Assembly: GCF_900112705.1 (NCBI RefSeq)
Contig: NZ_FOMR01000011.1
Location: 1-64,000 of the forward strand
Direction: 5' to 3'
From: Lentibacillus persicus
GTDB taxonomy: Bacteria; Bacillota; Bacilli; Bacillales; Amphibacillaceae
Length of the DNA: 64,000 nt
In this document: positions 10,600 to 51,813 of the stretch, in pieces
Position numbering within the stretch: position 1 is the first letter of the stretch
How the letters are laid out: every line of letters begins with the position of its first letter
Position numbers and translations under genes: made by a program
Notes under the pieces: model-generated
The model's database searches: none
The model's input: only the letters and a program-made list of their open reading frames with translations
What the model was told of the DNA's origin: nothing

Positions 10600-10951
10600 T
10601 TTATCTCCTCCTATAAATTGGATATTCCTATGATGACTGATCGGTGCTGACTTTAATAAAAGATACCGTACCATAAAGATAAATAATCCACAAATGACAA
10701 TTTTCGAGTAATTTCGCGGAATATTGACATAAACAAAGATATGGCGTTATAAAGTATGATTTTTATAAAGTGAATGGAGGATTTGAACTGTACAAACATT
10801 TTATACAGTTACAAATTTACGATATTTTAGATTATGTGGTTATGTTGGATGAGTGCTGCAAAGGTTGCGGGAACTGGAATTTAATGTAATAGGAGGGGTG
10901 AACTAAGCAACAAGTGTAAGCTTGAAAATAATTTTATAAGGAGTGTATGTT
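10600..10951. promoter_or_regulatory. Divergent intergenic region between the opuAC-like and BCCT genes, with inverted repeat
   Basis: The 352-bp spacer must hold the divergent promoters. An inverted repeat AACTGTA-N11-TACAGTT spans 10786-10810 and is a candidate regulator site. The CCGTC/GACGG operator of the nearby TetR is not present. A possible frame of about 39 codons from a GTG at 10770 has no support beyond being open. Confidence 0.5.
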
Positions 10952-12562
10952 TTGAAGGATTTGAATGTAGAACATAAAGTACTATGGCCTGTTTTGCTGA
11001 TTTTACTGGCAGGGTTAGTTCCTGTTGGGCTAAACCCTTCAGCTGCGGCAGACGTTGTAGGCACCATCCTGAGTTTTATTACTGGTAATTTTGGATGGAT
11101 TTTCGTGTTGTTCCCGTTTATGATACTTATTTTTTTCTCCTGGTTGGTTTTTGGGAGATTTGGTCAGATCAAATTGGGAGATCCTGACAGCAAGCCTGAA
11201 TTCTCAAACTTTAGTTGGTTTGCAATGATTTTCACAACGGGGATTGGTGCAGAAATCATGTATCAGTCGGTGATTGAACCAATTACTTATACAACCGGGC
11301 CTCCCTTTGGTTTGGAACCAGGAACAATAGGTGCAGCGGAGTGGGCTATACCTTATGGTTTTTTTCATTGGGGTATACTCGCGTGGGCAATCTATGCGCT
11401 TCCCAGTATCCCTATGGCATATGCACTCTATGTAAAAAAAGTACCCTATTTCAGGCTTAGTGCCGCCTGTAAACCAATACTGGGTAAACATTCAGAAGGT
11501 TTGCCGGGTAAAATTGTCGATGTTGCCATGATGATCGGGTTGATTGGGGTAGTGGGAACAAGTATCGGATTGGTTGCTCCCATGATAGCTGAACTATTGA
11601 GTGAAATGTTTAATATTCCCGTTACATTAGGGTTAATGGTCATTGTTATCGCGCTATGGGTGGCGATATTTGGTGGAAGTGTCTACCTGGGGCTTGAGAA
11701 AGGGATTAAAAGGTTATCAAACTTCAATATCGTTATTGTAGCTGCAATAACAGCTTTTGTATTCCTTGTTGGTCCAACCATATTTATGTTGAATAATAGT
11801 ATACAAGGTTTAGGCAGGATGTTTAACGATTTCTTTGAGATGGGCCTGAATCTTGGAACGATCAGTGGTGGAAGTTTTCCGCAAGATTGGACCGTGTTTT
11901 ATTGGGCATGGTGGATTGGTTATGCGTCTTTAATAGGTTTGTTTACGGCCAGGATTTCGAAAGGACGTACGATCAAGCAAGTCATCATTACTCAATGTTT
12001 AATAGGACCGGTGGGGTGCTGGGTGTTTTTTGGCGTTTTCGGAAATTATGCACTAAACATCCAAATGTCCAATTTAATTCCAGTTGATTCAATGATGGCA
12101 GAAAGTGGTCAAACGGGCGTTATAATGGCGGTTATTAACACATTGCCGCTCAGTGCGATTATCATTCCACTATTAGTCATCGCCTATCTCATATTCTCTG
12201 CAACGACATTTGATACCGCTTCATTGATTTTATCATCTGTCGCGAGTAAAAAACTTGATAAAACGGGACAGCCGCCGCGTCTCTACAGGTTATTCTGGGC
12301 GTTAATTCTTGGAGGAGTCGGTATCGTTATATTGGTAATAGGCGGGCTTCAGGCAGTTCAACTGTCGTCAGTTATTGTAGGGGTGCCGATGATTTTGGTT
12401 TTTGTGTTAATGACTATTTCGTTTATTAAGTCTGTCAAAGAAGACTTTGGAGAAGAAAAATCAACATTGGTAAGATATTCCGAAATTCCTGCATCGGAAA
12501 CTCAAGGTAATCAGATGTCTGCAGACAATGAAGATGTTCTTTTAAAAAAGGATGAGACATAG
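10952..12562 (+). CDS. BCCT family transporter, CaiT-like (quaternary-ammonium carrier)
   Basis: This 12-TM betaine/carnitine/choline transporter family protein has about 536 residues. Several stretches match the CaiT carnitine/gamma-butyrobetaine antiporter branch rather than BetP-type importers: PPFGLEP after TM3-4, FPQDWTVFYWAWWIGYA, NTLPLSA, and the C-terminal TISFIKSVK. The Trp-Trp-x-x-Tyr pattern equals that of the CaiT substrate site. The BetP/OpuD sequence GMGIGLMFWGVAEP is replaced by GIGAEIMYQSVIEP. TTG at 10952 is preferred because AAGGAG lies 8 nt before it; a GTG at 10943 overlaps that site. It is divergent from the OpuAC-like gene and precedes the carboxylase operon. Exchange of a carnitine-like substrate for a product is plausible but unproven. 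Confidence 0.88.
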   Translation: MKDLNVEHKVLWPVLLILLAGLVPVGLNPSAAADVVGTILSFITGNFGWIFVLFPFMILIFFSWLVFGRFGQIKLGDPDSKPEFSNFSWFAMIFTTGIGAEIMYQSVIEPITYTTGPPFGLEPGTIGAAEWAIPYGFFHWGILAWAIYALPSIPMAYALYVKKVPYFRLSAACKPILGKHSEGLPGKIVDVAMMIGLIGVVGTSIGLVAPMIAELLSEMFNIPVTLGLMVIVIALWVAIFGGSVYLGLEKGIKRLSNFNIVIVAAITAFVFLVGPTIFMLNNSIQGLGRMFNDFFEMGLNLGTISGGSFPQDWTVFYWAWWIGYASLIGLFTARISKGRTIKQVIITQCLIGPVGCWVFFGVFGNYALNIQMSNLIPVDSMMAESGQTGVIMAVINTLPLSAIIIPLLVIAYLIFSATTFDTASLILSSVASKKLDKTGQPPRLYRLFWALILGGVGIVILVIGGLQAVQLSSVIVGVPMILVFVLMTISFIKSVKEDFGEEKSTLVRYSEIPASETQGNQMSADNEDVLLKKDET

Positions 12563-42697: not shown

Positions 42698-42732
42698 ATG
42701 TGAGGGGATGGGGTGTATCAGTGAAGCATCAG

Positions 42733-42952
42733 CATATGTTCCTGAGCGGCGAAATATGTTCCGGAAAAGCAGCGTATGTTCCGGAGCGACTATATATGTG
42801 CCGGAAAAGCAGCGTATGTTCCGGAACGGCGGAATATGCGCCGGCAAAGCAGAGTATGTTCCGGAACGGCAAAATATGTGCCGCAAGTCCAGAATATGTT
42901 CCGGAACGGCAAAATATGTGCCGCAAATCCAGAACATGTACCGGAACGAGCC
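42733..42952. repeat. Tandem array, exact 20-bp period, 11 units
   Basis: Eleven units follow each other with the anchor ATGTT/ATGTG/ATGCG at 42736, 42756, 42776 and so on to 42936, with no change of phase. Two unit types tend to alternate: ATGTTCCGGAACGGC-like, which contains the palindrome TTCCGGAA, and ATGTGCCGCAAGTCCAG-like. Because 20 is not a multiple of 3 the array leaves open frames in several phases, none credible as genes. It lies between convergent genes (carnitine operon and fetB). Confidence 0.93.
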
Positions 42953-43735: not shown

Positions 43736-44460
43736 TCAATTTCACCTCGCACAAATTGTTTGACTCTCTCGTGTTGTGGGTCCTTCAAAAAGCTGCTTTC
43801 TCCTTCTTCTACAAGTTCACCGTCCATCATGACCCATGTCTGATGTCCGATTTCCATCGCCTGCTGGAGACTGTGTGTAATCCATAAAATGGTTGTGCCG
43901 TATTCCTGATTAATGCGGCTGATAAGCTTTTCGATATCCTGGCGGGACACGCTGTCCAAAGAAGATGTAATCTCATCAAGCAGGAGAATATCCGGCTGAT
44001 TCACGAGTGTTCGGGCTATGGATAACTTTTGCTGCTGCCCCCCGGATAAATCCTTTGTTTTTTTATCGAGAGCGATATCGTTTAAGCTAACAAGGCTGAG
44101 CAATTCTATTGCACGTTTATCTGATAATGACTCTCCACGCAGTTTTAACGGAAGGTCAAGGTTTTCCCGGACGGTTCCACTGACCATGGTCGCATTTTGA
44201 AGTGCAATGCCAACTTTTCGGCGCAATTGAACGGGTTCATAGCTGTCGATTGGGTTTCCGTGGACTTTAATACTGCCGGAGTCGGGTGATTGAAGCCCGT
44301 TGCACAACTTAAAGAGCGTTGTTTTCCCGGCACCTGATGGACCGACAACGGTAGTGATTTTCCCTTCCAGAACCTCGCCTGAAACATTCTTTAAGATATG
44401 TACACCGTCAGTTGTATAGTTTACATTGTTGAGCGTTATAGCGCTTGTTGCATCCTTCAT
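43732..44460 (-). CDS. fetA: ABC transporter ATP-binding protein, FetA/YbbL family
   Basis: This ATPase of 242 residues pairs with the FetB-like permease. Walker A is GPSGAGKTT, the signature LSGGQQQKLSIARTL, Walker B LLLDEIT and the switch His is in LWITHSLQQ. ATG at 44460 is preferred over a GTG at 44469, which sits too close to the AAGGATG site. A role in iron (or other metal) export is inferred from the family. Confidence 0.91.
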   Translation of the reverse strand: MKDATSAITLNNVNYTTDGVHILKNVSGEVLEGKITTVVGPSGAGKTTLFKLCNGLQSPDSGSIKVHGNPIDSYEPVQLRRKVGIALQNATMVSGTVRENLDLPLKLRGESLSDKRAIELLSLVSLNDIALDKKTKDLSGGQQQKLSIARTLVNQPDILLLDEITSSLDSVSRQDIEKLISRINQEYGTTILWITHSLQQAMEIGHQTWVMMDGELVEEGESSFLKDPQHERVKQFVRGEIE

Positions 44461-44575
44461 CCGTGTCACATCCTTTAGTATGTCCTGGATAATTCCTTCC
44501 CTATTATATCTAATCCATAACGGTTTTGCTTATATAAAATAAACATGGAAGGCCAATGCAGCTGCTGAAGCACGT

Positions 44576-45076
44576 TCAGGCAAAGTTTTCTTCATTATTA
44601 TTAAATTTTTTTAACAGCAACAATCGGATGATATTGCCGATAATCAGCCCTGCCGGCAGTCCCCCGGCCATAGGAAGCCACATAGGGCCAATCAGCTGGC
44701 CGAAAAGGGTAAAAGTTGGTGAGAAGATTAGTCCAACGGTCACAAAATAGGCAGAAAATACAAAAGGCACGTACGCATAGGGCTTGCTTTCGCCTCTCCC
44801 ATCCTTATACGCATCCCACATTGCAAAGAAATAAAGACATGGATAGAACATCAGCCATCCATAGTTCGTCTGGTTGACAGCTTCTTGAATTTGACCGTTA
44901 AAACTTAATAAAATGATGGTGTTGAAATTTCCCATAACATTTACAATAAATTCGAGTGTAATAAACAGAATGCCCTTAATATACCGCTCATTCAGTAGCT
45001 GACCAAACCCGGGCAGTGCGATACTCCATAGCAGCAATTCAAGTTTGCCTCTGTCTTTTCCTCTAAATTTTTCCAT
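44576..45076 (-). CDS. Multi-pass membrane protein with TM2-like motif
   Basis: This protein of 166 residues has about four TM helices. The segment WSIALPGFGQLLNERYIKGILFITLEF is like the Pro-Gly...Gly-Gln...Tyr pattern of TM2-type domains. A second hydrophobic half contains GGLPAGLIIGNIIRLL. ATG at 45076 is chosen from GAGAGGTAG 4-5 nt upstream. No function can be given. Confidence 0.75.
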   Translation of the reverse strand: MEKFRGKDRGKLELLLWSIALPGFGQLLNERYIKGILFITLEFIVNVMGNFNTIILLSFNGQIQEAVNQTNYGWLMFYPCLYFFAMWDAYKDGRGESKPYAYVPFVFSAYFVTVGLIFSPTFTLFGQLIGPMWLPMAGGLPAGLIIGNIIRLLLLKKFNNNEENFA

Positions 45077-45385
45077 TTGTCTACCTCTCGGAGCAAAAAT
45101 TTTTCCGGATAAAAAGTATAAATCCGGGTGACGTTGATACATACGAAGAGTGTCTGATTTAGCATATTAAGGAGGGCAAAACTGAGGAATCATTATGTAT
45201 TCTCCTTTCATACGATGGCGCCATTCAGACAGTTGTACCGATCATTTAAAAATGTTTCTGCACGATTAGTTTGGCATTAATGACAACTCCTATACTAATT
45301 AGACGAGCAAAACATTGGATTGGGATATGACAACATCGGCAATACCGGGACAGCATGATACAATAAACAGAAGGAATGAAAATAG
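45077..45385. other. Intergenic region between membrane protein and amidase genes
   Basis: No convincing gene was found in these 309 bp. A 23-codon frame from an ATG at about 45195 follows AAGGAGGG, but it shows no recognisable sequence. TATACT at about 45291 could be the -10 of the amidase promoter. Confidence 0.45.
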
Positions 45386-46876
45386 ATGAATTTGAAAACA
45401 TATATGACAATGGACGCAACCGATATCGCGGAACTTATTCGGATGAAAGAAGTCACACCAGGGGAATTTCTTAAACTTGCTTTCCGGCGGCTTGAGGAGG
45501 TCAATCCCGAATTGAATGCTGTCGTTCATGGCCGCAGAGAGAGGGTTATGATTGAGTCTGAAAGGTATAGGGAAAATCAGCCTTTTTCAGGTGTCCCGAT
45601 GCTCCTGAAAAATCTTTCGCAGGGCGTTGCGGGGGAATATATGACGTCTTCCTCGAAATTAATGAAAAATGTGATCAGTCAGCACGATTCGAACTTTGTC
45701 AGAAAATTGCGTGATGCCGGATTTTTGTTTATGGGGCATACGAATACACCCGAATTCGGCTTAAAAAATATAACAGAGCCTGAAGTTTACGGTCCGACAC
45801 ACAATCCGTGGAACACGGCTCATTCACCGGGAGGATCCAGCGGTGGTGCAGCCGCCGCAATTGCGTCAAGTGTTGTGCCGGTTGCCGGTGCAAGTGATGG
45901 AGGCGGCTCAATTCGCATACCTGCTTCATTTACCGGTTTGTTCGGCCTGAAACCAACGCGCGGAAGAACACCTGTAGGGCCTGGTTCAGGCCGGCAATGG
46001 CAAGGTGCGGCTATTGGATTCGTGCTGAGCCGGAGCGTCCGTGACAGTGCAGCACTGCTTGATATTTTGCAGACAGTACAGCCTGAAGCAGCATTCCAGA
46101 CACCGCTATTTCCAGGGAAGTATACAACGCATGCTCAACTCCCATTTGATAAACCTGTCAGAATTGCTTATACGACAAAATCCCCCGTCGGCACGCCGGT
46201 TTCAAATGACGCGCGTGAAGCGGTTCTTAAAACAGTAAACTGGCTGGAAAAAGAGGGTTATAACGTGGAAGAAAAAGAGCACGATGTTGACGGGGTAACG
46301 CTAATGAAAGATTATTACATGATGAACAGTGGCGAGATTTCGGCCCTCACAGCACAGTTGGAACACTCACTCGACAGAACTCTGACCCCTGATGATGTCG
46401 AACTGGAAACGTGGCTGCTTCACAAAGCGGGTAAGTCCGTGTCGGCAGCCGACTTTTCACGAAGTCTTGCCTCATGGGATGCTGCAGCGGCAAAAATGGA
46501 AGCATTTCACCGTACATATGACTTTTTTATCACGCCTGCTTCGGCATACACAGCACCGAAAGTAGGTGAGCTCACGTATTCACAGTCTGAACAGGCTGAG
46601 TGGCGAGATAAAATGGAGCGAGCGGATAAAGACAAACAGCAAACTATTATCTGGGATCTCTTTTTGCCGAGTCTCACGTATACACCATATACACAGCTTG
46701 CTAATCTAACAGGTCAGCCGGCAATGTCTGTTCCTGTACATAAAGCTTCCAATGGCCTGCCGTTAGGCGTCCAGGTGGTAGCGTCGAAAGGGAAAGAGGA
46801 CATGCTGTTAAAGCTTGCCCGCCAAATGGAACAATCTGATTTATGGGAAGGCTTAAAAGGGCTTCTGCCTTATTAA
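45386..46876 (+). CDS. Amidase (amidase signature family)
   Basis: This 496-residue amidase-signature enzyme has the Ser-cisSer-Lys triad: Lys75 (GVPMLLKNL), Ser151 (or 152) in PGGSSGGAAAAIAS and Ser175 in DGGGSIRIPAS. The residue after Lys75 is Asn rather than the common Asp. The C-terminal LANLTGQPAMSVPV segment is typical. It hydrolyses a carboxamide of unknown nature; a GatA role is unlikely because gatB and gatC are absent. GAAGGAATG precedes the start region. It ends at a terminator before the proteasome-like gene. Confidence 0.9.
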   Translation: MNLKTYMTMDATDIAELIRMKEVTPGEFLKLAFRRLEEVNPELNAVVHGRRERVMIESERYRENQPFSGVPMLLKNLSQGVAGEYMTSSSKLMKNVISQHDSNFVRKLRDAGFLFMGHTNTPEFGLKNITEPEVYGPTHNPWNTAHSPGGSSGGAAAAIASSVVPVAGASDGGGSIRIPASFTGLFGLKPTRGRTPVGPGSGRQWQGAAIGFVLSRSVRDSAALLDILQTVQPEAAFQTPLFPGKYTTHAQLPFDKPVRIAYTTKSPVGTPVSNDAREAVLKTVNWLEKEGYNVEEKEHDVDGVTLMKDYYMMNSGEISALTAQLEHSLDRTLTPDDVELETWLLHKAGKSVSAADFSRSLASWDAAAAKMEAFHRTYDFFITPASAYTAPKVGELTYSQSEQAEWRDKMERADKDKQQTIIWDLFLPSLTYTPYTQLANLTGQPAMSVPVHKASNGLPLGVQVVASKGKEDMLLKLARQMEQSDLWEGLKGLLPY

Positions 46877-46923
46877 TTAAGAATCCTGACAGTCCCCCGT
46901 CCGGCCCGATTCGATTGGGACAC

Positions 46924-46957
46924 ACACTACGCTTTGTTTGCGCGTAGTGTCTTTTTG
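46924..46957 (+). terminator. Rho-independent terminator after the amidase gene
   Basis: ACACTACGC (46924-46932) pairs with GCGTAGTGT (46942-46950) and is followed by CTTTTTG. Confidence 0.9.
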
Positions 46958-47009
46958 TTTTATTAAGCGTTTAATGTGATACACATCCACTAAGGAGGAT
47001 GTGAGCGAA

Positions 47010-48251
47010 ATGACAGCAGAAGTAGCTATATTGAATAAGTCAGGTCTCGCACTTGCAGCGGACAGCGCAATCACAAGTGGAAAAGACGGCGTACGAAAAA
47101 TATATAATTCAGCTAATAAATTATTTTCGCTTTCCAGAAACCATTCTGTTGGTGTTATGGTTTACGGCGCCGCCTCCTTTATGGAAGTGCCCTGGGGCGT
47201 GATTATTAAAGCGTACCGGGATTATTTAGGAGAGCGGACATTCGATTATCTGCCACACTATGTGGATGATTTTTTGGATTTTCTCCGTAAAGATGATAGA
47301 TTCAGAAAACCCGAGATTGAAGAGATTATCGTTTATCGATCTTTCTCTGACTTATTAAAACGGATTGTTAGAGAAACGGAAGAAGAATTGGCTCCGGACG
47401 AAGAACCGGTTCGATCAACGCAGCTGTTGATGAAGAAGGTCCAGCATCAGCTTGATACCTTTAAGCAGCAACAGGATTGGCTGGACCTGGAATTTCCGTC
47501 GTTTCGAGAATCATTTATGTCGGTCATCAGGGAAGTAAGGGAAGAGGTCATCCTGCATGAAACGGCTGATGATTTTGACGAGATGTTGTGTGAACTTGCC
47601 TTTGAAACGGTTAAATCGGATTATTTCAGTCTTGGAAGTACAGGGCTCGTTTTTACTGGTTATGGAGAGCAAGAGATTTTCCCTCATTTGGTGAATTACC
47701 GTCTGGAGGGATTTATAAATGGCCAATTAAAGTATAAAGAATTAAACGATAAAGAAATCAGTTATACGTCAGATGATAAGGCCGGCACTGCTGCTGTATT
47801 ACCGTTTGGCCAGCGTGAAATGGTGGATTCTTTTATGTATGGAATTGAGCCGGCTATAGCGGATACTATTTTTAGTATTGTCAGAGAGGTGCTGGATGAT
47901 TATCCGCAGCAAATGAAACGCTATCTTAATATTGATTTAACAGATGAGCAAGTTAATGCCCAAAAAGAATTGGGTAAAGACATATATGATTCGATTCAGA
48001 CAGCCGTATCTGAATATCAGCAGGCCAACTATATAGAACCTTTATTGGGGATTGTACGGTCTTTGCCCAAAGAGGAACTGGCCGAAATGGCTGAAGCCCT
48101 TATCAATCTTACGTCTTTCAAGCGGCGTCTGAGCAGGGTTACCGAATCTGTCGGCCCTCCTATTGATGTAGCAGTCATAACGAAAGGAGATGGTTTCATT
48201 TGGATGAAACGAAAACATTATATCGATGCTGAAATCAATGCATATGATTAA
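47010..48251 (+). CDS. Proteasome-like Ntn-hydrolase-fold protein, extended, uncharacterised
   Basis: This 413-residue protein begins Met-Thr-Ala-Glu-Val. With the Met removed, Thr1 is followed by LNKSGLALAAD, placing Asp at 17, as in proteasome beta subunits and HslV (Thr1, Asp17, Lys33). RKIYNSANKLF supplies the Lys (residue 29) in the KIF/KIY context of Lys33, with a 4-residue shortening. GVMVYGAASFM matches the next strand. The fold seems split by a charged helical insertion (about 85-200) and resumes at LGSTGLVFTGYG, ending with VGPPIDVAVITKGDGFIWMKRKHY. Classical subunits have about 180-240 residues. ATG at 47010 is chosen because it exposes Thr; AAGGAGG is 11 nt upstream, and a GTG at 47001 lies too near. 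Peptidase activity is inference. A 56-codon gene follows after 32 bp. Confidence 0.8.
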   Translation: MTAEVAILNKSGLALAADSAITSGKDGVRKIYNSANKLFSLSRNHSVGVMVYGAASFMEVPWGVIIKAYRDYLGERTFDYLPHYVDDFLDFLRKDDRFRKPEIEEIIVYRSFSDLLKRIVRETEEELAPDEEPVRSTQLLMKKVQHQLDTFKQQQDWLDLEFPSFRESFMSVIREVREEVILHETADDFDEMLCELAFETVKSDYFSLGSTGLVFTGYGEQEIFPHLVNYRLEGFINGQLKYKELNDKEISYTSDDKAGTAAVLPFGQREMVDSFMYGIEPAIADTIFSIVREVLDDYPQQMKRYLNIDLTDEQVNAQKELGKDIYDSIQTAVSEYQQANYIEPLLGIVRSLPKEELAEMAEALINLTSFKRRLSRVTESVGPPIDVAVITKGDGFIWMKRKHYIDAEINAYD

Positions 48252-48283
48252 ATAGCGCTATTAGCGAAGGGAGGCGGGAAGGC

Positions 48284-48454
48284 ATGGCGAAAAAGGAGAG
48301 ACCGGATAAGCAGACGTTCTTCAATCTGACAGGACAAGACCGTTTGGAATTTGATCTGGAGGACGAGCCCAAGCACAAAAAGGATGAAGCGATTGACAGG
48401 GTGTTTCGGAAATTGCACGAAAAGTTTGAGGAAACCAGGGATAAGGATGTTTAA
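48284..48454 (+). CDS. Small hydrophilic protein of 56 residues, unknown
   Basis: This small frame codes a charged protein (MAKKERPDKQTFFNLTGQD, then LEFDLEDEPKHKKDEAID, RVFRKLHEKFEETRDKDV). It has a short conserved-looking core and a predicted C-terminal amphipathic helix. GGGAGGCGGG lies just upstream of the ATG, and the gap to the proteasome-like gene is only 32 bp, so the two are probably co-transcribed. No family was recognised. It could be a partner or regulator of the upstream protein; this is inference from position only. Confidence 0.6.
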   Translation: MAKKERPDKQTFFNLTGQDRLEFDLEDEPKHKKDEAIDRVFRKLHEKFEETRDKDV

Positions 48455-48620
48455 AAATTAAATACCGTGGTATCCCACCTGCAGGATGGTTTCATCCAAG
48501 CCAATTATAAAGGGGTTTTTCTATTAGCTGGAAATAGAATCGGGAGTTTAAAAAGAGCTTAGAAGTGAAATTAGTCTACTGCAGGCCGAAAGAAAAGAAC
48601 TCTGAAAGGAGATGTTAAAG

Positions 48621-48851
48621 ATGGCTAAGAAGAACAATAATAAAAACAACAACAAAATGTCTCTGGAAGAAGCAGGACAAAAAGGCGGCAACACAACAGC
48701 TCGCAACCACGATCAGGAATTTTATGAAGAGATTGGCCAAAAAGGCGGGAAAACAACATCCCGCAATCATGACCAGGAATTCTATGAAGAGATTGGCCAA
48801 AAGGGCGGCAATGAACGTGCCCGACAAAATAACAACAACAATTCCAAATAA
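48621..48851 (+). CDS. KGG-repeat general stress protein, short paralogue (GsiB/YciG-like)
   Basis: This hydrophilic protein of 76 residues has three GQKGG motifs about 20 residues apart (SLEEAGQKGGNTTARNHDQE, FYEEIGQKGGKTTSRNHDQE, FYEEIGQKGGNERARQ). This is the stress-induced KGG repeat of GsiB and YciG, thought to be LEA-like and disordered, with roles in desiccation or osmotic protection. ATG at 48621 lies 9 nt after AAAGGAG, the same spacing as in its neighbour; the ATG at 48612 abuts the site. An Asn/Lys-rich head and tail flank the repeats. Confidence 0.9.
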   Translation: MAKKNNNKNNNKMSLEEAGQKGGNTTARNHDQEFYEEIGQKGGKTTSRNHDQEFYEEIGQKGGNERARQNNNNNSK

Positions 48852-48918
48852 CATGTTTAAAACACTCGATAGATTTGGAATGGTTAAGTAGAAATTGAAT
48901 TGAAAGGAGCGATTAAAG

Positions 48919-49383
48919 ATGGCTAAGAACAATGAGAAGAATAACAGAATGAGTCGTGAAGAAGCAGGTCAAAAGGGCGGAAACACAACAGCTCGCAACC
49001 ACGATCAGGAATTTTATGAAGAGATCGGTCAAAAAGGCGGGAAAACAACGTCCCGCAACCATGATCAGGAATTCTATGAAGAGATTGGCCAAAAAGGCGG
49101 AAACACAACATCCCGCGAACATGATCAGGAATTCTATGAAGAGATTGGCCAAAAAGGCGGAAACACAACATCCCGCGAACATGACCAGGAATTCTATGAA
49201 GAAATTGGTCAAAAAGGCGGAAACACAACATCCCGCAATCATGACCAGGAATTCTATGAAGAGATCGGTCAAAAAGGCGGGGAAACAACATCCCGCGAAC
49301 ATGACCAGGAATTCTATGAGGAAATTGGTCAAAAAGGTGGGGAAAGAAGGTCCCGCCAATCAAAGAGTAATAGAAACTCCTAA
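48919..49383 (+). CDS. KGG-repeat general stress protein, long paralogue (GsiB-like)
   Basis: This 154-residue protein has seven GQKGG motifs at an exact 20-residue period (unit of the type RNHDQEFYEEIGQKGGNTTS). The encoding DNA repeats every 60 bp from about 48960 to 49345 with very few changes, so copy number can change by slippage or recombination. It is a paralogue of the gene 67 bp upstream, with a nearly identical start region. GTTTAA at about 48854 with GGAATG 16 bp further is a weak resemblance to a sigma-B promoter. LEA-like stress protection is inferred from the family. Confidence 0.92.
   Translation: MAKNNEKNNRMSREEAGQKGGNTTARNHDQEFYEEIGQKGGKTTSRNHDQEFYEEIGQKGGNTTSREHDQEFYEEIGQKGGNTTSREHDQEFYEEIGQKGGNTTSRNHDQEFYEEIGQKGGETTSREHDQEFYEEIGQKGGERRSRQSKSNRNS
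48960..49345 (+). repeat. 60-bp near-identical direct repeats within the long KGG gene
   Basis: Six to seven consecutive 60-bp units, each encoding one 20-residue KGG repeat, differ at only a few positions, for example in GCAACC, GCAATC or GCGAAC codons. Two related units lie in the short paralogue at 48.68-48.80 kb. Confidence 0.92.
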
Positions 49384-49419
49384 TATCTAGAAAGTAACAG
49401 AAGATTAATATTAAGTCAA

Positions 49420-49451
49420 GAAGGAAGGGGATTTTCTCTCCTTCCTTTTTT
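49420..49451 (+). terminator. Rho-independent terminator after the KGG genes
   Basis: AAGGAAGGGGA pairs with TCTCCTTCCTT and is followed by TTTTTG. It closes the stress-protein transcript. Confidence 0.9.
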
Positions 49452-49585
49452 GTATTGTATAAACGTTTGGGAGCCGGGTATAATTGATAAGAATAGGTTA
49501 TAAAAACATTAAGGATGTTTTTACTTCACACACTATTTCTAGTATAGTTAAAAATGAATAGTTCATTGGGAGGAGCAGACTGGAT

Positions 49586-50548
49586 ATGCAGGATACTGCC
49601 ATAAATAATGAAAAGATTAAAAGAGTTCTGGATAATATAAATAAAGTCATGATTGGCAAAGAGGAAGAAGCGATGCTCAGTCTTGTAGCATTGCTGGCTC
49701 AAGGGCATGTTCTGCTTGAAGATGTGCCGGGTGTCGGTAAAACGATGCTCGTCCGGACACTGGCTAAATCATTAGACTGTGATTTTAGAAGAATACAATT
49801 CACCCCCGATTTACTCCCGGCGGATGTAACGGGAGTATCGATTTATAATCCCAAAGAGATGGAATTCGAGTTTCGCTCAGGTCCGATTCTCGGCAATATT
49901 GTACTGGCGGATGAAATTAACCGGACTTCCCCAAAAACACAATCAGCATTGCTTGAAGGCATGGAGGAGAATAATGTCACGGTTGATGGCAATACGATTC
50001 CCCTGAAAAAGCCTTTCTTTGTTATGGCAACACAAAATCCGATTGAATATGAAGGAACATACCCGCTGCCGGAAGCTCAACTTGATCGATTTATTTTAAA
50101 AATGAAAATGGGGTATCCGACAGCTGAACAGGAAATGAATATGCTTGAGCGGACATCCAAAAGCCATCCAATAGACAGCATATCGGCAGTAATGGACCGT
50201 GAGGAGTTAATAGCGGTTCAGGAAGCAATCAAAGATGTTTATATCGATTGGAGCGTCCAGCGTTATATTATTAATCTAGTAACTGCCACAAGAGAAGATA
50301 GTGCGGTCTATTTAGGTGTCAGTCCACGTGGTTCAATCGCATTGATGAAAACAGCAAAAGCCTATGCCTATGTCCAGGGCCGTGATTATGTGTTGCCGGA
50401 TGACGTTAAATATTTAGCGCCATACGTGTTGGCACACCGGCTTATTTTAAATGCTGAGGCTAAATATGATGGTCTGACACCTGATTCAGTCATTGAAAAT
50501 ATCATCCAACTGACACATATCCCAATTCGAAGGGAATTTAATTCATGA
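49586..50548 (+). CDS. MoxR-family AAA+ ATPase (YeaC-like)
   Basis: This 320-residue AAA+ ATPase of the MoxR group has Walker [10 protein letters not shown] (about residues 46-54), Walker B ILADEINR, sensor 1 ATQNP and a C-terminal lid with [10 protein letters not shown]. MoxR proteins act as chaperones with DUF58/VWA partners. It is the first gene of a three-gene set (MoxR, DUF58, transglutaminase) whose order upstream of guaA equals yeaC-yeaD-yebA of B. subtilis. GGGAGGAG precedes the start; it overlaps the next gene by 4 nt. Confidence 0.94.
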
Positions 50549-51813
50549 ACGGCACCATTCGATTCATTGGTAAACTGAGCTTTGTCGTATTTATGCTGCT
50601 GCTGTTATTTTCATTTGCGATGTTTCAGGGCGGCTTTGTCAGCTGGTTTCTTTTTTATGGTTCACTGCCAATTTTTTTATATCATATCGGCCTGTTGCTT
50701 TACCCGGTCAAAAAGTGGCATGTGAGCCGTACGCTCTCCCGCTATGTTGTGCGATCGGGTGACCGCGTACAGGTAACCCTTCGAATCAAACGCACCTTTC
50801 CATTCCCGTTATATTATTGTGTTATTGAAGAAATATTGCCTGATACATTACAACGAACTGATCACCCCGATGAAAGGTACCGTTATTTGGGCCGGCCTGA
50901 AAGAATGCATACAACCCGTCGTGTTAAAAAGATTACCTTCCCGGGATTTCGCCGAATGATTGAAATACCGTACGAAATAGAGGGCATCCCGAGAGGCGAA
51001 CATCAACTGCGGGCAGTCCGGATGCGGACCGGGGACGTATTCGGGATAGTGGCCAAAGAACATATTTTTCAAGTGGAAGATCAGATTGCAGCGTTTCCTA
51101 ACGAGCGTCCAGTTTCGATTTCAGAGCGGATTAACAGCTATGATCAAGGAGCCGCCTCTTCAAGGGCCATGAATTTAAAAAACACAAATGTTGCTTCCGG
51201 GATACGGGAATATACACCAGGCGATAAATTTTCCTGGATAGACTGGAAGCAGACTGCAAAGAAAAATACGGTCATCACGAAGGAATTTGAACAGGAAAAA
51301 AGCACGGATACATTAGTAGTGCTGGATGCCTGTTATAATGAAAGAATTAATGAACTGGCGTTTGAAAGCAGTGTTGAATTGACAATGTCACTTTTAGAAT
51401 CGATTCAACGACAGACTTCGCAGGCAAGCTTTTTGTCAATCGGGAGGGAGACCATTTATTTTCCACTCGATCATGACCCTGCCAAGAAAGATTGGATCAG
51501 AAGGCATTTAACTCGAATACAGCCGGGCGGTGAGGTTCCTTTTTCGGTTAAATTGCGCGAAGAAATCATGAAAATCGGTACAGGCGCCAATATGCTGCTT
51601 ATAACAACACAGATGGATCATGAATTTCCGAGGACAGTTAAACAGGTCAAGCTGCGGACGAAACAATTGGTTGTTATTTTTATTCAGGCACGCGAACTAA
51701 TATCACGAGACGAACAGGCTATGATTCGGCAGTTGCGGGGTGAGGGTACGGTTGTCAATGTGCTGTCTGAGGACGAATTGGCCCGTAAACTAATTGAGGT
51801 GAACATTGTATGA
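50545..51813 (+). CDS. DUF58 domain membrane protein (YeaD-like)
   Basis: This 422-residue protein has two N-terminal TM helices, a beta-rich domain and the DUF58/VWA-like core ([35 protein letters not shown], about residues 210-245, followed by VVLDA). It partners the MoxR ATPase encoded upstream. Start and stop overlap its neighbours by 4 nt each (ATGA type), showing tight translational coupling. Confidence 0.93.

Follow-up and report, generated by a model that had tools for sequence, protein, structure and literature searches.

A PMI-4-type proteasome-like Ntn protein of Lentibacillus persicus and a candidate small partner protein

A 64,000-nucleotide stretch of the Lentibacillus persicus genome (contig NZ_FOMR01000011.1, positions 1 to 64,000; hereafter the window) encodes a proteasome-like Ntn protein that fits the published description of PMI-4. 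The best explanation of the evidence as a whole, in which we place slightly better than even confidence, is that PMI-4-type Ntn hydrolases are the large subunit of an often mobile two-gene cassette. Its mobile setting, together with a small partner that evolves faster than the enzyme, points to regulated activity in the service of phages and other elements; exclusion of competitors is our first guess, with addiction and stress proteolysis as rivals. PMI-4 is the largest PMI group, and the analysis adds concrete, testable handles beyond the survey that named it, namely a conserved small partner that is absent jointly with the enzyme's C-terminal tail, as well as a strong association with KGG-repeat genes in one bacterial family. 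If the enzyme proves to be a protease or ligase that phages carry together with a dedicated peptide regulator, this would add a proteasome-derived tool to phage–bacteria conflict.

The gene and the elements that define its start and putative active site are as follows.

47010..48251, + strand: PMI-4-type proteasome-like Ntn protein, 413 aa (from translation, conservation in 87 sequences, an AlphaFold2 model, PDB matches and phrog_5990)
46992..46998, + strand: Shine–Dalgarno sequence AAGGAGG, 11 nt 5' of the ATG at 47010 (read directly from the sequence)
47013–47015, 47061–47063 and 47118–47120, + strand: codons for Thr2, Asp18 and Lys37 of the PMI-4 gene

The frame is uninterrupted from the ATG at 47010 to the stop ending at 48251. 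We prefer this start to the GTG at 47001 chosen by the ORF caller because the latter allows no ribosome site. Translation places a Thr directly after the start Met, as the original prediction had it; removal of the Met makes this Thr the first residue of the mature chain and puts Asp at position 17, the second position that had been foreseen. Thr or Ser at position 2, Asp18 and Lys37 are each invariant in 87 of 87 homologues, a count in which position 2 is biased towards Thr or Ser at minus-strand genome loci, where the start finder demanded [MLV][TS]A, and unaffected at plus-strand loci. The set leaves out five loci with no fitting start, four of which begin MTS or MTL (the fifth is L135), and also excludes the partial or broken loci L008, L009 and L011–L013, together with L038. 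Because full-length homologues span several phyla with these three residues invariant, the observation is more than chance.

A profile comparison with the Thermoplasma acidophilum β-subunit (1PMA_B) brings Thr1 and Lys33 into register, with an E value of 0.0019 for the whole match and weak support for its separate stretches. The counterpart of proteasome Lys33 in this alignment is Lys36 of the mature chain, within NKLF. The original prediction had instead nominated the Lys of an RKIY motif; that residue is kept in 85 of the 87 homologues, but it is Lys36, conserved in all 87, that aligns with Lys33, and we reject the RKIY Lys as a catalytic residue. The proposed closing strand of a proteasome fold at the C terminus was well placed, GGPIDVAVISKGDGF aligning on SGGMIDVAVITRKDGY of the T. 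acidophilum β-subunit. The earlier reading therefore holds for the frame, the Thr, the Asp, the closing strand and the helical middle described below, and fails for the Lys.

The AlphaFold2 monomer model has a predicted four-layer Ntn fold of the proteasome type, on which Foldseek and VIA-align concur, so that the structure prediction and fold search proposed at the outset returned the expected architecture. Identity to the proteasome β-subunit entries among the PDB matches is 13–18%. Single-sequence searches of Pfam, NCBIfam, PDB and PADLOC with the 413-residue protein gave only matches that we take for chance; the best hit to any PADLOC 2.0.0 model, none of which was matched, had an E value of 0.0068, to Cas13a. 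Taken together, the predicted fold and the aligned residues make catalysis by Thr1 likely. Three further parts of the chain stand out.

47292..47633, + strand: first helical insertion, approximately residues 95–208, past H2, with four helices in approximately 101–202 (secondary structure of the model)
47901..48062, + strand: second helical insertion, approximately residues 298–351, at the H3/H4 junction (secondary structure of the model)
48210..48239, + strand: C-terminal tail, residues 401–410, with R401, K402, Y404 and N410 conserved (conservation in 13 and in 34 sequences)

The first of these is the long helical insertion noticed earlier, and the model agrees with it. The second insertion was recognised here, and so were the partner ORF that follows the gene, its KGG-repeat neighbours and the mobile setting.

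A survey by Fuchs, Alva and Lupas (2021; PMC8665760) introduced 22 relatives of the proteasome and, in the available part of its text, names two of them, PMI-3 and PMI-4, for insertions at both sites seen here (after H1/H2, and H3/H4). PMI-4, for proteasome homolog with multiple insertions 4, comprises 501 sequences at 90% identity (cluster example HDY66466.1) and is listed there for Firmicutes, Bacteroidetes, Proteobacteria, phages and others, whereas the listing for PMI-3 is without Firmicutes or phages (PMC8665760). The model helices at 101–202 and 298–351 match the survey's sites and our homologues come from Proteobacteria, Firmicutes, Bacteroidetes and phages, so that the window protein fits PMI-4 as assigned by features, in a comparison with the published description only. 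The protein also matches phrog_5990, a full-length phage family with no assigned function, at an E value of 1.3e-107. With a phage family model and a published group in place, the notion of an undescribed branch finds no support. Nor does that of a Bacillaceae speciality, because the family is also found in Bacteroidota, Pseudomonadota, phages, satellites and plasmids. Searches of the openly licensed literature returned nothing on PMI-4 function or on a partner.

The protein differs from each of its better-known relatives. It is about twice as long as the 20S proteasome β-subunit, from which it is also distinguished by the two helical insertions and by having no propeptide, and its 413 residues compare with 228–241 in the Anbu chains among the PDB matches, well away from a subunit of approximately 240 residues. 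Connectase is likewise a proteasome relative with a helical insertion, which controls substrate, but the available text places that insertion at an S3/S4 site unlike those of PMI-4 (PMC8665760). HslV (CodW) is a Thr1 hydrolase of the same clan, and the window's genome encodes it separately, as anticipated: its gene, on another contig, is the only PF00227 match of the genome, a search that did not reach the PMI-4 protein, and a profile comparison of HslV with PMI-4 by hhalign was not significant (probability 2.4).

The shared fold and catalytic residues, one predicted from the model and the others read from the alignment, would suit an HslV-like self-compartmentalised protease partnered by an ATPase unfoldase. 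We consider this very unlikely, since no AAA+ gene recurs near PMI-4 (AAA_5 was matched by 2 of 112 neighbours, among the best 25 of 143 families) and the insertions lie at the pore-loop and H3/H4 sites. The available part of the survey likewise reports neither an AAA+ partner nor a function-suggesting genomic context for the relatives, and states that insertions at both sites could hinder ring assembly, allowing another angle for one of them (PMC8665760). The MoxR gene that flanks the window's locus was tried as a dedicated unfoldase and rejected, as 11 congeners have MoxR at this very site but no PMI-4 there.

A small ORF follows the PMI-4 gene, a feature for which the available text of the survey reports no counterpart (PMC8665760).

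48284..48454, + strand: ORF of the small partner, 56 aa, which begins 32 nt past the PMI-4 stop and has a TFFNL aromatic motif and a C-terminal helix

A strict rule (ATG plus ribosome site) finds such an ORF behind 55 of 82 homologues, compared with 65 of 548 control genes, and a looser rule behind 74 of 82, compared with 200 of 548. The 82 are the 87 homologues minus five with too little flank, and the controls are non-overlapping ORFs, superseding an earlier set of 457 that could hold shadow ORFs (53 strict, 160 loose); at L001 and L007 the selection rule took an ORF other than the likely partner. One BLAST cluster takes in the +1 ORF at 18 of the 33 loci that could be parsed (8 of 41 could not), that of the window among them, in differing neighbourhoods. 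The small proteins average 54 residues; they are divergent as well as charged, and 46 of 71 contain an aromatic dyad. AlphaFold2 on the small protein, with seven sequences, gave a single helix at residues 30–55 and little else (pLDDT 69, pTM 0.30).

That the ORF arises by chance or is a leader, with no protein partner encoded, we regard as extremely improbable. The sequences are very divergent, PHROG offered no convincing family for ten of them and Pfam none for six, and the loose rule is satisfied by many control genes too; against this stand the enrichment over the controls, the amino-acid similarity across loci and a dN well under dS in the few usable pairs. In those pairs the median dN/dS is 0.11 for the small ORF and 0.07 for PMI-4, from five usable pairs among 80, most of them saturated, that were sampled from 387.

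The small ORF is absent jointly with the tail. In PMI-4 proteins without the HYF-type tail (L028, L029, L030, L203, L205, L206 and L215) the small ORF is found in 0 of 7 within the span of the rule, against 74 of 78 of the others, and genome G927 carries both PMI-4 types, the first accompanied by the small ORF and KGG genes and possessing the tail, the second with none of the three. No small ORF was found near the tail-bearing L024, L042, L058 and L063; the genome of L024 has a similar ORF approximately 400 bp downstream. In G445 the interval between PMI-4 and its small ORF measures approximately 400 bp (L182, approximately 10690–11100), and Rfam gave no match in L182. The scan did not show a small ORF in G993, and L159 has one despite a shortened tail. 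The tail is conserved, it falls in the final two blocks of the AlphaFold2 monomer model, where confidence is low (pLDDT 53 and 37), and members that lack it have no small ORF, from which we infer that it may be the docking site of the small partner. Alternatively, because most tail-less members are kin, a single event may have removed both the tail and the ORF.

The two genes lie close together, with a median gap of 12 nt and a gap of zero or less in 12 of 71 cases. Such a short-spaced, co-directional pair, carried by plasmids and satellites, recalls toxin–antitoxin-like addiction, in which the free Ntn enzyme would be toxic and the small protein its antidote. We think this distinctly unlikely, given that the small gene is the downstream one and that tail-less members exist without it. 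We know of no toxic phenotype for PMI-4.

The distribution of PMI-4 across genome samples is patchy. With the single protein as query, 3 of 299 genomes were positive in a phylum-level sample; 15 of 299 were positive at the level of the order and 25 of 119 at that of the family, each count including the window's own genome. In the phylum of a Chryseobacterium, 9 of 296 genomes were positive, five of them strongly and the central genome included. The first relatives came from nine loci (two partial) in Bacillota, Bacteroidota and Pseudomonadota. Partial DNA matches occur in 22 of 5,426 E. coli genomes, and homologues in 10 plasmid records and in 13 phage records, Streptococcus satellite phages among them. 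Viral contigs scanned with a single sequence gave no relative, whereas a profile picked out 153 in IMG/VR among 173 candidate stretches; 80 of the 153 were retained.

Phage or prophage copies make up 48 of the 87 sequences in the tree grouping, a share that reflects where we searched. The window gene lies in a 17-sequence clade from genomes of its family and Oceanobacillus (support 100/100), nested in a 27-row group that includes eight viral-contig copies (99/99); the tree was rooted at the midpoint for drawing purposes only. Among 150 neighbours of viral copies are 10 Q antiterminators, 9 repressors and several holins and endolysins. The upstream co-directional neighbours, 20 tested of the 25 that exist among 40 viral representatives, comprise five proteins of lysis, three repressors, two proteins for heads or packaging, an excisionase, and nine that have no assignment or no known function. 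In E. coli Res13-Sevr-PER07-33 the gene comes after a prophage helix-turn-helix regulator, and in strain 120899 it sits between a methyltransferase and a Q gene. It lies at or near the right end of the satellites Javan468 and Javan103, approximately 3 kb from the right end of Javan421, and is the last gene of phage Javan85.

These settings bear on the possibility, which we rate somewhat below even, that PMI-4 provides anti-phage exclusion. The small protein would restrain the enzyme until infection upsets the complex, whereupon an invader protein or a host factor would be cut. Consistent with this are the proximity to repressor, Q or lysis genes, the right-end positions in Javan468, Javan103 and Javan85, a place between two opposite-strand genes in 10 of 40 viral representatives, the patchy distribution and a partner that evolves faster than the enzyme. 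Some copies nevertheless lie within head or packaging regions, such as that among the structural genes of a Porphyromonas phage, and the copies in host genomes of the window's family form a single, well-supported clade. The protein also belongs to no PADLOC family, and PADLOC on 112 neighbours, in a scan without a control set, revealed no clear defence island: 93 families were matched, the commonest among the best 25 of them (mad3) in five neighbours, and we judge the matches mostly generic.

In the window, the PMI-4 gene belongs to a block that also contains two KGG-repeat genes.

46839..49518, no strand: block with PMI-4, the small ORF and both KGG genes, which the closest congener lacks or has replaced (flank alignment with L235)
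46924..46950, + strand: hairpin followed by a T tract, 3' of the upstream amidase gene (seen by eye, outside the pattern scan)
48621..48851, + strand: KGG-repeat gene 1, approximately 76 aa, with a 60-bp tandem repeat
48919..49383, + strand: KGG-repeat gene 2, 154 aa, with six KGG stretches (PF10685, E 1.4e-27)
49418..49450, + strand: terminator-like hairpin past the last KGG gene (pattern scan)

Sequence shared with the closest congener (L235) stops near 46839 and restarts near 49518. All 11 other genomes of the genus have the site, flanked by the amidase and MoxR genes, and in none were PMI-4, the small ORF or KGG genes found, the KGG absence resting on a query with KGG gene 2, the short gaps and six sampled congeners without a match. 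The empty-site gaps are 132–791 bp in ten congeners and 1,821 bp in one; the long gap (L236, 5470–7290) holds transposase-like ORFs and is presumably a transposon. The same amidase–MoxR site carries the module in five genomes of three other genera. Given this sharing of one site, old presence followed by loss and repeated insertion at a hot spot are both possible. Rfam gave nothing in 44000–51000.

Across the 119 genomes of the family sample, KGG genes occur in 23 of the 25 that have PMI-4 and in 7 of the 94 that do not (Fisher p 2e-16, with no correction for kinship), and by genus in 12 of 13 against 3 of 33 (p 1e-7). The query here was the KGG protein itself in place of PF10685, which was positive in 0 of 26 genomes at E 1e-6, the window's own KGG-bearing genome included, a cut-off too strict for a 22-position model. 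Both PMI-4 genomes that lack KGG genes (G949 and G957) have the tail-less type only. KGG-repeat proteins (PF10685) resemble GsiB. The enzyme of the window's family might serve stress or dormancy proteolysis by processing these proteins, for example at glycine pairs, a reading that would draw on the co-occurrence, on KGG genes within 2 kb of PMI-4 in 16 of 23 genomes and in several gene neighbourhoods, and on a pattern scan that found no + strand terminator-like site between the window's PMI-4-to-KGG genes. We nonetheless find it unlikely. Co-inheritance at shared sites may account for part of the link, and because seven genomes have KGG genes without PMI-4 and none was seen in the phage and Bacteroidota loci read, KGG proteins are not a general substrate; the proteobacterial loci read showed none either. 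The link looks like a local addition. No connection between KGG repeats and a proteasome homologue came up in a search of openly licensed papers.

Our preferred reading remains that of a two-gene cassette with PMI-4 as its large subunit. In this cassette, methionine aminopeptidase would bare Thr1, which with Asp17 and Lys36 would attack a peptide bond, as a peptidase or as a connectase-like transpeptidase, while the two helical insertions would stand in for a large closed barrel by limiting or presenting the substrate. The small protein, probably disordered for the most part but with an aromatic motif and a terminal helix, would dock on the conserved C-terminal tail and act as an adaptor, an inhibitor or a dedicated substrate. 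Phages, satellites and plasmids carry many of the relatives as accessory genes, in several cases next to a repressor, an antiterminator Q or a lysis gene, and the likeliest beneficiary would be the lysogen or the element, for instance through the exclusion of rival phages. In the window's family, one lineage resides in host genomes and is tied to KGG-repeat genes, its possible client or cargo. A bolder version, which we offer as a long shot, is that a proteasome subunit has given rise, in PMI-4 with its tail-docking protein, to a new class of mobile system for immunity or exclusion, domesticated in the window's family for cutting or joining KGG proteins at glycine pairs, and that copies near rhizobial ubiquitin-like operons may mark a proteasome-like arm of these ubiquitin-like conjugation systems.

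Several observations stand apart. On the rhizobial plasmids L040, L041, L246 and L042, PMI-4 lies 1–2 kb from an operon encoding multiubiquitin, E2 and ThiF (E1) proteins, with one arrangement in three related loci and another in Mesorhizobium; the Rhizobium leguminosarum copy (L246, 8001–9238) aligns in two overlapping pieces and is probably broken. SmpB was matched by 3 of 112 neighbours, assigned by inspection to L216, L217 and L208, and may mark an insertion hot spot. Within the window, a 40-bp tandem repeat of 5.5 copies occupies 42730–42948, between two convergent genes.
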